From: Methylobacter sp. S3L5C
GTDB lineage: Bacteria; Pseudomonadota; Gammaproteobacteria; Methylococcales; Methylomonadaceae
NCBI RefSeq assembly: GCF_022788635.1
Contig: NZ_CP076024.1
Span: forward strand, 806,001 to 870,000
Direction: 5' to 3'
DNA length: 64,000 nt
The first letter of the stretch is position 1; each line of letters begins with the position of its first letter. Below the pieces are notes generated by a model that searched no databases, was not told where the DNA came from, and was given only the letters and a program-made list of their open reading frames with translations. Below are positions 41,351-48,472 of the stretch, one piece after another. The translations under genes were made by a program, and so were the position numbers.

Positions 41351-42925
41351 TTACTTGTCTGCTGGTGTCTGCAATTGTTCCAGCACCTGATCGATGCTGA
41401 AACTTGCTGCCTTTTGACGCGGCGGGAACTCCTTGAAGGTTGATAAGAAGCTACCTACATACTTCTGCGCTGGCGTTAGCAGGAAAATATGATCCAGATA
41501 CCAGTCCCAATAGGTGTTGGCAGTAATGCTGGCTTTCTCATAAGGATCCGTGCGCAGGTTATAGAGCCAAGGAATGCGTGTTTTCACAAATGGTTCGCCC
41601 CATACCAACATAGTACCGGGCGCACGTTGTTGAGCAAACACCACTTTCCAATTGTCGTAACGCAAGCTAGTCAAATCGCCGTCATCGGAGAAATAAAAGA
41701 ACTCTTCGCGCGGGCTTTTAGGTTCTTGACCGGTCAGGTAAGGAAGTTGGTTATAGCCATCCAGATGCACTTTATAGGTCTTTTTACCCGCTTTGTAGCC
41801 CTTGAGCAGTTTTTCCTTAACATCAGGCACACCTGCGGCGGCTAACAAGGTAGGCGCCCAGTCCAAATGTGAAACGATGTCATTGGATACCGTGTTAGGT
41901 TTGATATGTCCAGGCCAGCGTACCATGGCAGGAACGCGGTAAGCACCTTCCCAATTGCTGTTTTTCTCGCCACGGAACGGGGTCATTCCCGCATCAGGCC
42001 AAGAGTTCATGTGCGGACCGTTGTCGGTGCTGTACATGACGATGGTGTTGTCGCTAATACCCAATGAATCGATTTTATCGAGTACCGTACCGACATTTTT
42101 ATCGTGATCGATCATCGCATCGTGATAATAACTTTGCCAACGTCCAGCCTGACCGACATTTTCAGGTTTGGTATGGGTACGAAAGTGCATGTGTGTGAAG
42201 TTTACCCACAGAAACAGCGGCTTGTTGGCCTTGACTTGTTTTTCCATGAACTCAGTAGCGCGGGCGGCAGTATCGTCGTCGATAGTCTCCATACGCTTTT
42301 TAGTTAAAGGGCCAGTGTCTTCGATTTTTTGCGATCCATCTGGATTAGCCCAGCTATGGAGTACACCACGCGGACCAAATTTCTTGCGGAATTCCGGGTC
42401 TTTTGGATAATCGGGTAATTCAGGTTCTTCTTCGGCGTTCAAATGATACAGATTGCCGTAAAACTCATCAAAACCGTGCATGGTAGGCAGGAATTCGTCC
42501 TTATCACCCAAGTGATTCTTACCGAATTGTCCAGTTGCATAGCCTTGGGCTTTCAGCAACTCGGCAATAGTCACATCGTCTTTACTAAGACCGACATCGG
42601 CACCAGGTAGTCCTACCTTACTTAGTCCTGTGCGGAATACGCTCTGTCCTGTAATAAAAGCGGAACGACCCGCAGTACAGCTCTGCTCGGCGTAGTAATC
42701 AGTAAAAATAACACCTTCATTGGCAACGCGGTCGATATTGGGTGTTTTATAACCCATCATGCCTTTCGTGTAAGCGCTGACGTTGGATTGACCGATGTCG
42801 TCGCCCCAGATAATAACGATATTAGGTTTCTTGTCTTCCGCTTGCGCAGAAAGCGCCGCCGCGCAGGTGCTCATCACAAAAAACGCGATCGCCGCCGGAC
42901 GTTGTAGCAGGTTTCTTGTCATCAA
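41351..42925 (-). CDS. Periplasmic arylsulfatase-family sulfatase
   Basis: A 524-residue sulfatase that would hydrolyse a sulfate ester. Signal peptide at about 1-29 (AFFVMSTCAAALSAQA). Metal-site D42-D43 (IIWGDDIGQSN), the formylglycine motif C83-T-A-G-R87 (SCTAGRSAFITGQ), GKNHLGD and YSTDNGPH metal region. C83 needs conversion by formylglycine-generating enzyme or an anaerobic maturase, not seen in this window. The start has AGGAG upstream. Substrate is unknown. Ends at a strong terminator. Confidence 0.92.
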   Translation of the reverse strand: MMTRNLLQRPAAIAFFVMSTCAAALSAQAEDKKPNIVIIWGDDIGQSNVSAYTKGMMGYKTPNIDRVANEGVIFTDYYAEQSCTAGRSAFITGQSVFRTGLSKVGLPGADVGLSKDDVTIAELLKAQGYATGQFGKNHLGDKDEFLPTMHGFDEFYGNLYHLNAEEEPELPDYPKDPEFRKKFGPRGVLHSWANPDGSQKIEDTGPLTKKRMETIDDDTAARATEFMEKQVKANKPLFLWVNFTHMHFRTHTKPENVGQAGRWQSYYHDAMIDHDKNVGTVLDKIDSLGISDNTIVMYSTDNGPHMNSWPDAGMTPFRGEKNSNWEGAYRVPAMVRWPGHIKPNTVSNDIVSHLDWAPTLLAAAGVPDVKEKLLKGYKAGKKTYKVHLDGYNQLPYLTGQEPKSPREEFFYFSDDGDLTSLRYDNWKVVFAQQRAPGTMLVWGEPFVKTRIPWLYNLRTDPYEKASITANTYWDWYLDHIFLLTPAQKYVGSFLSTFKEFPPRQKAASFSIDQVLEQLQTPADK

Positions 42926-43166: not shown

Positions 43167-43883
43167 TTAATCGAGAAAGCGTACATGTCCCGTGTTTAGT
43201 TCATAGATGGCCCCGGCTAATATCACTTGCTTTTCCCGTAACGCCCGTTTTGCTTCCGGAAGCGCGAGCAGTTCACGCATCGACCAACGCACATTGGCTT
43301 CCACAGCTGCATGCAGCAAAGCCTGCCGATCCAGTTTCAGATTGAGTTTCTTGAGTCCGGGTTTGATTGATTTGATCAGCGATTCGATGTGTTCGAGTTC
43401 TTTGGTTTTATTGAGCATTTCTTCTACAGTAGCAGTGACAGCTCCGCAACCTTCATGACCCAGTACCACTATCAGACGGGTATGGAGATGCGCCACGGCA
43501 TATTGCAAAGAGCCAACGACATCTTCCGCAATAATGTTGCCTGCCAGGCGAATGGTAAAGAGCTCACCGAAGCCTTCATCAAAGATAAGTTCAGGTGGCA
43601 CGCGCGAATCGCTACAACCTACAATGGTTGCGAAAGGTTTTTGCGTTTCAACAAGGAGGCTGCGCCAAGACGCCTTTTCATGGCTATGCTGGGAGATGTC
43701 GTCCATAAAGCGCTGATTACCATTTTTCAAGCGCATCAGTGCCTCATTGGCATTACTCGGATAAGACTCCGTATCGATTGCGCCAACATTAACCGTTTCG
43801 GCGACAACGCCCGAGGCTATTCCCAGACCTGCGCAACAAGCGCCGAACAACCATTGTCTTCGTGTGATAAATGGATTTGTCAT
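43167..43883 (-). CDS. Tat-exported beta-carbonic anhydrase
   Basis: A 238-residue enzyme that interconverts CO2 and bicarbonate. The N-terminus ITRRQWLFGACCAG is a twin-arginine signal, so it should be periplasmic. Zinc-site motifs are IVGCSDSRVPPELIFD and VVLGHEGCGAV. Position: same strand as and downstream of the GH5/ABC genes. Confidence 0.92.
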   Translation of the reverse strand: MTNPFITRRQWLFGACCAGLGIASGVVAETVNVGAIDTESYPSNANEALMRLKNGNQRFMDDISQHSHEKASWRSLLVETQKPFATIVGCSDSRVPPELIFDEGFGELFTIRLAGNIIAEDVVGSLQYAVAHLHTRLIVVLGHEGCGAVTATVEEMLNKTKELEHIESLIKSIKPGLKKLNLKLDRQALLHAAVEANVRWSMRELLALPEAKRALREKQVILAGAIYELNTGHVRFLD

Positions 43884-44099: not shown

Positions 44100-45242
44100 T
44101 TATCCTGACCCGGCAACTTCGTTGGCAAAATTGTCAGGTAACCACCCCTGGTTAACGCATTCTCTAAAGGACCATTCGGGAGCTGTTTCTGTTTTGTAAC
44201 TCCAAAAAAACCAGCCCTGATATGTTTCAAAAGTTATCAGTTGGGCTGCGGCATAGGCTCGGTAAGCAAGTGATTTTTGAAAACTGTCCATCGCTTGCAG
44301 GGTATCCTTTAAAGGTCCTTCAGCCCAAAGCGATACAAACTTTAGATGCAGCCCTAAACTCCATTCACCTACGTAAGCGGGATAACTCAAAGTACTATTA
44401 ATGTCATCTGCTTCGTGCTTCCAATCGACAACTGAACTGCGGATATGACCATAGATATCCAAGTCAATATCGGCCTGTACGAAACACTGGTAGCGGTGTA
44501 TATCGAACACGACATTGCCAAATTCGGGTTCGGTTAAAAAGCCGGTATATTCCTGGAAAGACCGAAAACCATCATGAAAAACTACTGCAACGTCCTCTGC
44601 CCGGCAGTATTTACGAATACGATGATAGGCATCTGTGGTGTATGTTTTTAACAGATCGGTATCAATATCCCAACGCGGCTCGTTTAATACTTCAATGCCA
44701 TGTAAAGTAGGCTGACTATGATAGCGCTCGGCCAGACGCTCCAACAGATCCAATGAATAATTGATATAGTCTTCTTGGGTATGCCATTCGCAAACATTCA
44801 GGATGCCGCCATTATCAAAACCGTTTTGGCAACCCGGTGCGGCATGTAAATCCAGTACAACAGACAAACCATATTGCTCGGCCCAATCGAATGCTCGATC
44901 AAGAATGGCTAACCCACCGTTCACAAATGGATGTAAAGAGGCACCATAGGACGGATGATAAGGATAATCCGGCCCGAATAGCCAGTGACCAACGGGGATT
45001 CTAACAGCATTTATTCCGGTTTTGGCAAGCCAGAAAAAATCCTCGGCGGTAATAAAAGTGTCCCAATGCTTTTTAAGTGACGTTTCAGCACTTGCGCCCA
45101 ATTCAACGCAGTAGGAGGTTTCGTCTGTCGCTTGAAGACCTTCAAAAAGACTGGGTGTCATCCATTTTTCCAGCACCAGCCAACCGCCCAGATTAACGCC
45201 CCGTATTTTCTTGGCAAATTTACTATCAATTTCCTGGTTCAA
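44100..45242 (-). CDS. GH5-like beta-glucanase (exo-1,3-glucosidase type)
   Basis: A 380-residue TIM-barrel glycoside hydrolase. It starts FAKKIRGVNLGGWLVLEKWMTPSLF as in fungal-type exo-1,3-beta-glucanases. The acid/base Glu is in GIEVLNEPRWD and the nucleophile Glu in AYVGEWSLGL. There is no signal peptide, so it would act in the cytoplasm or use another route. It could hydrolyse or transfer beta-1,3-glucans; substrate is inferred only. Neighbours are a pseudo-ABC protein and a small ORF. Confidence 0.85.
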   Translation of the reverse strand: MNQEIDSKFAKKIRGVNLGGWLVLEKWMTPSLFEGLQATDETSYCVELGASAETSLKKHWDTFITAEDFFWLAKTGINAVRIPVGHWLFGPDYPYHPSYGASLHPFVNGGLAILDRAFDWAEQYGLSVVLDLHAAPGCQNGFDNGGILNVCEWHTQEDYINYSLDLLERLAERYHSQPTLHGIEVLNEPRWDIDTDLLKTYTTDAYHRIRKYCRAEDVAVVFHDGFRSFQEYTGFLTEPEFGNVVFDIHRYQCFVQADIDLDIYGHIRSSVVDWKHEADDINSTLSYPAYVGEWSLGLHLKFVSLWAEGPLKDTLQAMDSFQKSLAYRAYAAAQLITFETYQGWFFWSYKTETAPEWSFRECVNQGWLPDNFANEVAGSG

Positions 45243-45495
45243 AATAGTTACTCTTCCTTTAAACGTGACAATACTTTGGTCAGTTTTAATCTATTGAAAT
45301 GATATTTTTTTTAACAAATAATCTCAAAAATCTGATTGTAATGCTGACAAATAACTCTTTAATTTTTAATTAGTTAGCGTTTTATGTGATTCTGTATCTT
45401 GCATAAGTTTGATTTAATCACTCACAAATCGCCATAAGGCTTGTTAGTCGTGAAGTACCAATTATCAAAACTGTCCGAAGTATTGACGTGAAAGC

Positions 45496-47190
45496 TCACA
45501 GAATAATCTTTCGGTGATGAAACGCAATCGCCGTGGGTTGATTGGTAATCGATAGTAAAGCTGCATCAGGTAATTGCTGACAGATAATGCGCAACATTAA
45601 TACTTCACCATCGGGATCAAGCGAGTCGAAGGCTTCTTGTAAAAGAATCCATTTAGGACGGTACAATAACAATCGCACCAGTCCAAGGCGCTGTTGCTGT
45701 TCACGCGTCAACACTTTGTCCCAGGCATCTGTTTGTTCAAGCTGACCTCGTAATTCCTCAAGCCCTGCGAGATTGAGCAACGCATCAATCGAAGCGAAGC
45801 TAAATCTTTCAGAAGGAGACGGATAGCAAATAGCGACATGTAAGGTTCCGTCCGGTAAATAAGGGCGTGGCGGCATAAAAAACAGGGGCTCGCCATCCGG
45901 CAATTCAATACTGCCTCGCCCCCAAGGCCAGAGACCGGCAATCGCTTTAAAAAGTCTGGCTCCTGTAAAAACATCACCAGAAATTAGTACACGTTCACCC
46001 GGTCTGATTTCGGCATTTAGACCACAGATCATGACTTTGCCATCAAGTTGTGAGATACACAAATCATGAAAGCTTAAAGTGGACTTATCGGGCCTTTCCA
46101 ACAAAATTCGTTGCGGATCAGGACGCGCTATTTCCAGCTCCAAATCCTCCAAAGCCTTGACCAATCCTAAAACACGTTCAACCGAGGCACGCCATTGCGC
46201 AATGGGAGCCATATTATTGACTGGCCAGGACAATGCAGCAGACATTTGTTGAAACGCCTGCACAGCCTGCATCAACGCACCGAGAGTAAGACTCCCGAGA
46301 ATATAGCGTGGCGCAGCGATCAGGATAGGGAACGCCATGGACAACACACCATAGCCTGAGTTGAAGAGTAAAATATTCACCCAGGCTTGGGTTTGATGTT
46401 CATACAAAGCAGTAATATTTTGAAAAAGATTAAGAAATCGTCTTTTTTCGTTAGTCTCGCCATGAATCAGGGCAATTGCCTGCGAATTTTCACGCGCTCT
46501 GACCAACCCAAAGCGAAAATTGGCTTCAGCAGTTTGCATCGCATTGGTGGTCAATGTTAAAGGCCGACTTGCCCACCAACCCAAAACGGAAGCGAGGGCT
46601 GAATAAATTATCGCTACCCAGACCAAATAGCCATGAACAGGAAATTCAAACGCTCCCAAATCCAGAATAAATACCCCGGAAAGCTCCCAGAGAATACTGG
46701 TAAAACTAATGAGTAACAGCAAGCTATAAAATAGCGAATGACAAAGAGTAATGGCTTCATCAGTTGCAATACGGATATCTTCAGCTATCCGGCCATCAGG
46801 GTTGTCATGATCGACTGTTTGTATATGAGAAATCAGGTAATGACGACCGTTGTTCATCCACTGACCGATTACACGCTCTGTCAGCCAGGATCTCCAGCCG
46901 ATTTGCAAATGCCGCTTTACTTTCATATGCATGGCAGTGACAGCCATACTGGTTGCAAAAATCAAAACCAGATAGCTAACCTGTACCAATAGCCCGGACA
47001 TGGAGTGCTGTTCAAGGGCATTAAACAGTGCTGCACTCCATTCCGTAATAATGACTGCAAGAGCCATCTGCAAGACAGTAAGAACGATTAAAGCCAACGT
47101 CTGATTGCGGATAACAGCCTTATTCTCAGAATTCCAAAAGGGGCCAGCTAACCGTAAAAATTGAATAAAAAATCCATTTTGACCTTGCAT
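45496..47190 (-). CDS. SbmA/YddA-type ABC protein with degenerate nucleotide-binding domain
   Basis: A 564-residue fused membrane/NBD protein. Residues about 1-330 form the six-helix SbmA_BacA-like domain; 370-564 the NBD. The NBD motifs are lost compared with E. coli YddA: Walker A G405-x4-G410-A-R412 has Ala for Lys and Arg for Ser/Thr (45955-45978); the Q-loop Gln is Pro441; the signature reads LTREQQQR; the Walker B Asp is Gln518 (ILLQEAF, Glu kept); the H-loop His is Asn550. Such a domain would not be expected to bind and hydrolyse ATP normally. It might be a regulatory or receptor-like protein, or a pseudo-transporter. It lies upstream of GH5 on the same strand. Confidence 0.85.
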   Translation of the reverse strand: MQGQNGFFIQFLRLAGPFWNSENKAVIRNQTLALIVLTVLQMALAVIITEWSAALFNALEQHSMSGLLVQVSYLVLIFATSMAVTAMHMKVKRHLQIGWRSWLTERVIGQWMNNGRHYLISHIQTVDHDNPDGRIAEDIRIATDEAITLCHSLFYSLLLLISFTSILWELSGVFILDLGAFEFPVHGYLVWVAIIYSALASVLGWWASRPLTLTTNAMQTAEANFRFGLVRARENSQAIALIHGETNEKRRFLNLFQNITALYEHQTQAWVNILLFNSGYGVLSMAFPILIAAPRYILGSLTLGALMQAVQAFQQMSAALSWPVNNMAPIAQWRASVERVLGLVKALEDLELEIARPDPQRILLERPDKSTLSFHDLCISQLDGKVMICGLNAEIRPGERVLISGDVFTGARLFKAIAGLWPWGRGSIELPDGEPLFFMPPRPYLPDGTLHVAICYPSPSERFSFASIDALLNLAGLEELRGQLEQTDAWDKVLTREQQQRLGLVRLLLYRPKWILLQEAFDSLDPDGEVLMLRIICQQLPDAALLSITNQPTAIAFHHRKIIL

Positions 47191-47545: not shown

Positions 47546-48472
47546 ATGGTTTTAAATATGATGTCATTACGTACGCCAAATGGAATACCCACCGACATTT
47601 TAAATATAGCCCACCGGGGAGCGAGGGCATTTGCACCGGAAAATACCTTGGCCGCCTTTCAAAAGGCCAAGCTATTTGCTTGTCAGATGTTCGAAATGGA
47701 TGTTCGTTTGTCAAAGGATAGAGAATTAATCGTTCATCACGACGAACAATTAACCCGCTGTACTGATGTTAAATTAAAATTTCCAGACCGCAAGACTTTT
47801 TATGTCGAAGATTTTACTTACGATGAATTGATAACTCTGGATGCCGGTAGCTGGTATGTCGAACAATTATCTTTGCCTGCATTACAAAGACAGGAATTTT
47901 TACAATCATTAACAGATGAAGAAATAACCCGGTTTGTAACTTCGCAAGATATTCAGCTTTATGCCTCCGGCAACATAAAGATTCCAACATTAAAACAGAC
48001 GCTGGAATTTGCCAGGCATGCCGAAATAATGGTTAATGTTGAACTTAAAACGCCGCCTAATGTGACGACAGAACTGGCAGAAGCGGTTGTCAAATTGGTT
48101 GAATTGATGAAAATGGATGATCAGGTTGTGATTTCATCATTTGCCCATGATCAGTTAAAAACAGTACGTCAGCTCACAAAAACCATCGCCATTGCCATTT
48201 TAACCAGTGACAAAATTGAAAACCTGACTGACTATCTACGCTTACTGGACGCCGATGCCTATCATCCCAATTGCTATAGTGAACCCGATTCAACAGGAAG
48301 CCGAAAACTGAACGGGTACGGAATTACTTCGGTTCGAAGTACCGGTCGCTATGTCAATGGTTGGACGTGCAACAATAAAGACGATATGCGCCAGCTAATC
48401 ACTGCCGGCGTGACCGGTTTGATTTCCGACTTTCCTAATCGAGTACAAGATATTTTGTTGGAATATGAATGA
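47546..48472 (+). CDS. Glycerophosphodiester phosphodiesterase
   Basis: The 308-residue GDPD releases glycerol 3-phosphate from glycerophosphodiesters. Catalytic/metal motif IAHRGARAFAPENTLAAF (His, Arg, Glu, Asn), EMDVRLSKDRELIVHHDE and MVNVELKTPP. Starts could be the ATG at 47546 or nearer ATGs at 47558 or 47561, none with a clear ribosome site. No signal peptide is evident. It could scavenge phosphate with the neighbouring alkaline phosphatase. Confidence 0.9.
   Translation: MVLNMMSLRTPNGIPTDILNIAHRGARAFAPENTLAAFQKAKLFACQMFEMDVRLSKDRELIVHHDEQLTRCTDVKLKFPDRKTFYVEDFTYDELITLDAGSWYVEQLSLPALQRQEFLQSLTDEEITRFVTSQDIQLYASGNIKIPTLKQTLEFARHAEIMVNVELKTPPNVTTELAEAVVKLVELMKMDDQVVISSFAHDQLKTVRQLTKTIAIAILTSDKIENLTDYLRLLDADAYHPNCYSEPDSTGSRKLNGYGITSVRSTGRYVNGWTCNNKDDMRQLITAGVTGLISDFPNRVQDILLEYE

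Follow-up and report, generated by a model that had tools for sequence, protein, structure and literature searches.

A YddA/BclA-type half-transporter family with a degenerate nucleotide-binding domain, conserved in Methylococcales methanotrophs

The closest described systems are the transporters YddA, BclA and Rv1819c and the importers of the SbmA type. In the available part of the published account, SbmA has the same kind of transmembrane domain (TMD) as the protein studied here, runs without a nucleotide-binding domain (NBD) and is proton driven via six glutamates (E193, E203, E269, E276, E287 and E378). According to a proposal made there, SbmA goes back to a YddA-like ABC transporter in which TMD and NBD became separated, and the same part of the account makes no mention of stages in which a dead NBD was still attached (PMC13316013). 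For BclA, an intact relative, the available part of the source reports that transport requires ATP hydrolysis (PMC12003926). Our literature search, which covered open-licence PMC papers, found no paper on the family described here.

Domains, ATP-site residues and selection

We analysed a stretch of 64,000 nucleotides from Methylobacter sp. S3L5C, henceforth referred to as the window. It encodes a YddA/BclA-type half-transporter (PF06472) with a fused NBD (Table 1). Pfam assigned PF06472 ABC_membrane_2 (116 bits) and PF05992 SbmA_BacA to the protein, and no ABC_tran match was obtained at E 0.001. Among the 43 family members scanned with Pfam, all carried PF06472 and 18 matched ABC_tran (E ≤ 0.01), which identifies the C-terminal part as derived from an NBD. 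The AF2 model of the window protein aligns with Rv1819c up to residue 564; it is a monomer in which the coupling loop is weak (residues 118-130, pLDDT < 50). An earlier note on this DNA had described all five nucleotide-binding motifs as lost. The changes in Walker A, Q-loop, signature, Walker B and H-loop are each present in the window sequence, and the description is true of this protein, although some site residues survive in some family members.

Table 1. Features of the locus, with positions in the window
Feature	Positions	Strand	Remarks
Fused TMD and pseudo-NBD protein	45496..47190	minus	564 aa, ATG start; YddA/BclA branch of type IV ABC transporters
Transmembrane domain (TMD), residues 8-345	46156..47169	minus	Most conserved part
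ATP-dead nucleotide-binding domain (NBD), residues 370-564	45499..46083	minus	
Former Walker A, GDVFTGARLFKAIAGL (core GDVFTGAR)	45931..45978	minus	Lys absent, one residue deleted
Former Q-loop, FFMPPRPYLP	45853..45882	minus	Gln to Pro
Former signature, LTREQQQR	45688..45711	minus	
Former Walker B and D-loop, WILLQEAFDSLD (LLQEA)	45616..45651	minus	Asp to Gln, Glu retained
Former H-loop, SITNQPT	45532..45552	minus	His to Asn
GH5 gene, exo-beta-1,3-glucanase-like, downstream partner	44100..45242	minus	Both catalytic Glu present
Mobile insert of 217 bp, MITE-like, in transporter-GH5 spacer	45269..45485	minus	22-nt inverted ends, 86% complementary

We collected homologues by a protein search of 101 related genomes, a contig scan of named genomes (best 80 of 374 confirmed loci) and a class-wide search of 369 genomes. 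After identical sequences of two genome collections were merged, the family sample comprised 94 distinct full-length members, all scoring >900 bits; fragments (G022, G025 and G056) and TMD-only copies were kept outside it. The family was found in Methylobacter, Methylovulum, Methylomonas, Crenothrix, Methylomicrobium and Methylomagnum, which are methanotrophs of the Methylococcales. Among the best 80 of the 374 loci, the named sequence closest to the window protein comes from Methylobacter psychrophilus (95%). Within the window genus, 29 of the 35 genomes searched contain the family; the remaining six (G001, G002, G005, G007, G013 and G033) have neither the transporter nor the GH5 gene. For comparison we used 29 intact relatives with ATP motifs.

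The core of the ATP site is lost throughout the family. The Walker A Lys is absent in all 94 members (42 Ser, 35 Ala, 13 Asn, 3 Gly and 1 Ile), and the residue that follows it is basic in every case (79 Lys, 15 Arg). The Q-loop Gln is Pro in 94/94, and the Walker B Asp is always replaced, by Gln in 79 members and by Glu in 15. The P-loop of every member is short by one residue (16 vs 17 residues). The two intermediates compared (see below) have the same deletion, which occurs in none of 23 of the 29 intact relatives; these 23 were picked with their motifs already seen and exclude near-duplicates (L163, L174 and L175) and distant proteins (L180, L181 and L183). Some residues remain: the Walker B Glu in 91 members, the D-loop Asp in 63 and the H-loop His in 8. 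The motifs for ATP binding and hydrolysis, which the 29 intact relatives possess, are thus not found as a set in the family.

We estimated selection by the Nei-Gojobori method on 33 disjoint pairs at 80-98.5% identity, using each protein once and dropping pairs with dS ≥ 2 or undefined (2 of 33 for the TMD, 4 of 33 for the NBD). The median dN/dS was 0.067 for the TMD (31 usable pairs, 0 to 0.20) and 0.080 for the pseudo-NBD (29 usable pairs, 0.033 to 0.242). Between the window protein and its 95% relative the values were 0.069 and 0.101, respectively. Since dN/dS of the NBD is low and exceeds that of the TMD in 22 of 28 pairs, constraint on the pseudo-NBD is strong and slightly looser than on the TMD. 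The earlier note had supposed that the protein is probably kept for a task other than ATP-driven transport, in which case homologues would share the degenerate residues at dN/dS below 1. This is what we observed: the core losses are common to the 94 homologues and dN/dS is far below 1, and the NBD has been retained through a long evolutionary period despite its missing ATP-site residues. Close relatives with intact motifs and a high dN/dS, which would have indicated a recent pseudogene, were not found, and the 95% relative has the same losses.

Relatives and candidate energy-coupling residues

We placed the family in a tree of 50 TMDs. One clade (support 100/100) unites 21 family sequences, three proteins from another gammaproteobacterial group that we call intermediates (L146, L147 and L215) and two NBD-less proteins (L149, with a 430-residue frame, and L214, with a 416-residue frame). 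Walker A is gone from L146 and L147, which still have the Q-loop Gln and a nearly normal signature (LTLGELQR); Walker B of L147 is intact (IDEA), and L215 is degenerated further than these two. The TMD-only genes were the two matches among five genomes of their order, in another gammaproteobacterial group, and come from two genomes. No NBD frame was found in the 11-kb stretch around the first of these genes (L157). Wider stretches (L216 and L218) contain ABC ATPase-like frames ~5 to 8 kb from the TMD-only genes, so a separately encoded NBD is possible for them. The TMD-only branch and the family are weakly supported as sisters (92/55), and this branch may have split off before or after the ATP site was lost in full. 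In genome G003, an extra TMD-only copy with a 375-residue frame (L048, 4983-6107) lies just upstream of a full-length family copy. The genomic context of the intermediates and intact relatives contained no common neighbour that would explain function.

Across the whole protein, 57 positions carry a residue that is fixed in the family and seldom occurs in intact relatives, and 45 of them lie at or before residue 343. Of these 45 TMD positions, the intermediates share 28-30 and the TMD-only proteins 32. Three intact proteins share 0-1, a low value to which the choice of positions itself contributed, whereas the high values of the others owe nothing to it.

The coupling-loop residues D129, N130, P131, D132, R134, I135, E137 and D138 are invariant in 94/94 members, and Gln133 of the intact relatives is Gly in 89. 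The loop predicted to contact the NBD thus appears to be retained in the family. We also compared the TMD with the glutamate ladder of SbmA, which is incomplete here. The equivalents of E193 and E276 are Glu in 94/94, and that of E378 is Glu in 41 and Gln in 46; the other three are not acidic (E203 is Ile, Val or Leu, E269 is Thr in 94/94, and E287 is Arg or Gln). The two conserved glutamates are no mark of proton coupling because they are common in intact relatives too, and gradient coupling, if any, must use other residues. His151 (93/94) lies four residues, or by sequence position about one helical turn, past the E203 position, and together with His88 (94/94) and His128 (93/94) it is common to the intermediates and the TMD-only proteins. 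We propose these three histidines as candidate proton carriers.

A second clade with degenerate NBDs comprises L053-L061 from the same order and L184 from elsewhere in the class. These proteins have lost the Gly and Ser/Thr of Walker A and often retain its Lys; the Q-loop Gln is usually Glu, the Walker B Glu is usually Arg, and the H-loop His is absent. In the TMD tree they stand apart from the window clade and group with the intact L050 (100/100). We fetched 16 further loci (including L197-L211), of which 15 are degenerate and one (L196) is intact; genome G081 encodes six PF06472 proteins, five of them degenerate. ATPase-dead clades of the PF06472 superfamily thus appear, from their sequences, to have arisen independently twice in the same order.

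The GH5 gene and the surrounding locus

The GH5 gene next to the transporter, which the earlier note had pointed out, turns out to be a conserved association: in 69 of 94 loci it lies downstream in the same orientation. Among the 25 loci in which it was not seen, 19 have >1.5 kb of downstream sequence and six have too little, which leaves 88 informative loci. The spacer is ≤ 50 bases in 52 of the 69, an upper bound since it was measured to the first ATG of GH5. Among the 101 genomes, 42 contain both genes, three only the transporter (G043, G045 and G048), one only GH5 (G060) and 55 neither; the co-occurrence has a Fisher p of 1e-23, or 8e-11 within family f1, with kinship ignored in both. The two genes are present and not adjacent in G047, and in the three genomes with two full transporter copies (G035, G039 and G041) GH5 adjoins one copy only. 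In the class sample, two of 369 genomes match GH5 at 1e-60, namely that of the window and G428, a genome from the group of the intermediates in which PF06472 gave no match. We scanned 48 context loci and found no GH5 gene beside intact relatives, intermediates or members of the second degenerate group; the matches were L051, L052 and L063, all of which carry fragments of the window family.

Along most of its sequence the GH5 protein resembles exo-beta-1,3-glucanases (8z2w and 1cz1), and all 66 aligned sequences of the 69 found carry both catalytic Glu. No signal peptide was seen by eye at its N-terminus, and on this visual judgement the enzyme is probably cytosolic. Loci lacking GH5 showed no sign of a decaying pseudo-NBD: 48 highly conserved NBD positions are kept at 0.976 in the 19 loci without GH5 and at 0.987 in the 69 with it. 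Because members without GH5 are equally conserved, GH5 is the usual and not the obligatory partner.

In the window strain a 217-bp insert occupies the spacer. It is flanked by a 6-bp duplication (TCACGT, by eye), is absent from the 95% relative (L065) and has a 99.5-100% copy elsewhere in the genome, plus weaker or partial matches; it may separate the expression of transporter and GH5 in this strain. Three further genes were noted nearby. A divergent glycerophosphodiester phosphodiesterase gene lies upstream of the transporter (47546-48472, plus strand), and in 11 of 94 loci a relative of it occurs close to the transporter (upstream in 9 copies). A beta-carbonic anhydrase (43167-43883, minus strand) has an N-terminus that looks twin-arginine-like by eye (RRQWLFG) and is possibly exported. 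An arylsulfatase-like gene (41351-42925, minus strand) has an N-terminal stretch that resembles a signal peptide by eye.

Interpretation and comparison with known systems

Our preferred reading, to which we assign a probability of about 0.55, is that the family consists of homodimeric type IV ABC half-transporters of the YddA/BclA branch that are now independent of ATP, carry a docked pseudo-NBD and usually serve GH5. The TMD would still carry or gate a substrate, the NBD would be retained as an ATP-dead structural or regulatory domain docked on intact coupling loops, and passage would be driven not by ATP but by an ion or substrate gradient. For most members the probable substrate would be a glucan fragment or beta-glucoside on which the co-encoded GH5 acts, and hydrolysis by this enzyme could draw it inward. 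We infer transport because the TMD is constrained, TMD-only cousins exist and SbmA provides a precedent; we likewise infer its ATP independence, direction, driving force and substrate. The observations that count for ATP-free transport are the ATP-site losses and the P-loop deletion in 94/94, the low dN/dS, the coupling loop in 94/94, the TMD-only relatives, the absence of an intact PF06472 partner over the cut-off in 44/45 genomes and the GH5 pairing, and SbmA may be added by analogy. The incomplete glutamate ladder, the continued selection on the NBD with its Walker B Glu retained in 91/94, and the requirement of BclA for ATP hydrolysis count against it. A GH5-linked substrate is weakened by the 19 of 88 informative loci without a GH5 neighbour and by the three transporter genomes without a GH5 match.

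The earlier note had given a sensor or peptide-binding role as an example, and the most viable alternative, which we nevertheless consider unlikely, is a sensor or scaffold: a protein that no longer transports, whose membrane part binds a ligand and whose pseudo-NBD passes the signal on to GH5 or anchors the enzyme. Conservation of a pseudo-NBD without an ATP site would suit such a sensor or scaffold, as would the linkage to GH5 and the side-by-side remnants to which both genes are reduced in G056. However, the constraint on the TMD exceeds that on the NBD in 22 of 28 pairs, related genes have no NBD, and the 19 loci without GH5 keep the NBD positions equally. A pure sensor or peptide-binding role is therefore not our first choice; the TMD is the most conserved part, and the TMD-only lineage fits transport better.

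The NBD is under selection and the Walker B Glu is widely retained, so some nucleotide-related role is conceivable. The basic residue after the lost Lys and the Walker B Glu could together form a remodelled site that senses nucleotide and does not hydrolyse it. We regard this as quite unlikely, given that the P-loop is one residue short, that the Q-loop Gln and the Walker B Asp are gone from every member, and that related genes have dispensed with the NBD altogether.

The protein might also be the degenerate half of a heterodimer in which an ABC protein from a different subfamily supplies the ATPase site. Half-transporters function in pairs, and heterodimers carrying a single degenerate site are well documented (PMC7756269). 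A partner from PF06472 is unsupported in 44 of the 45 genomes with the family, several of which are incomplete: above the cut-off, G038 alone has a further PF06472 protein that is intact, and in G003, G035, G039 and G041 the additional copy belongs to the family itself. Second matches fall below the cut-off in G009 and G055, G056 has no match, and the window genome contains a single PF06472 protein. No ABC gene lies beside the transporter in the clustered neighbourhoods either, and we consider a heterodimer very unlikely. A decaying pseudogene or a sequencing error has a negligible chance and is rejected for the family, since 94 distinct full-length open genes share identical core losses at dN/dS far below 1, although one of the 101 genomes (G056) does hold remnants of both genes, with no TMD left in that of the transporter.

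If ATP-independent transport is the correct reading, the family may show an ATP-driven pump becoming a transporter without ATP. More tentatively, the clade might record how an ABC transporter was independently turned into a secondary transporter by stepwise loss, with the steps still legible. Walker A and one P-loop residue would have gone first, as in L146 and L147, then the rest of the ATP site, giving the Methylococcales family, and finally the whole NBD in a related lineage (L149 and L214). Newly fixed TMD residues, including His88, His128 and His151, would meanwhile have taken over energy coupling. The family offers stages in which a dead NBD is still attached, with living relatives before and after NBD loss, and this opens the change from primary to secondary transport to experiment. 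For methanotrophs, a conserved transporter-enzyme pair becomes available as a subject. As a caution, the annotation "ATP-binding" may not hold for every PF06472 protein.

Heterodimeric ABC exporters with one degenerate site have similarly degenerate NBD motifs; for the family, no intact PF06472 partner over the cut-off was found in 44/45 genomes. SbmA and BacA are proton-driven peptide importers (SLiPT) without an NBD; in contrast, the family keeps the NBD and the coupling-loop motif and has an incomplete glutamate ladder, and the NBD is absent only in L149, L214 and the extra L048 copy. The GH5 partner is similar to the exo-beta-1,3-glucanases 8z2w and 1cz1 over most of its length and has both catalytic Glu, but it is tied to an ATP-dead transporter, and its activity on beta-1,3-glucan is putative. 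With YddA, BclA and Rv1819c, which are of type IV with a PF06472 TMD and a fused NBD, the family shares its architecture, and it differs from them in the missing ATP site, the shortened P-loop and the 57 family-specific positions.
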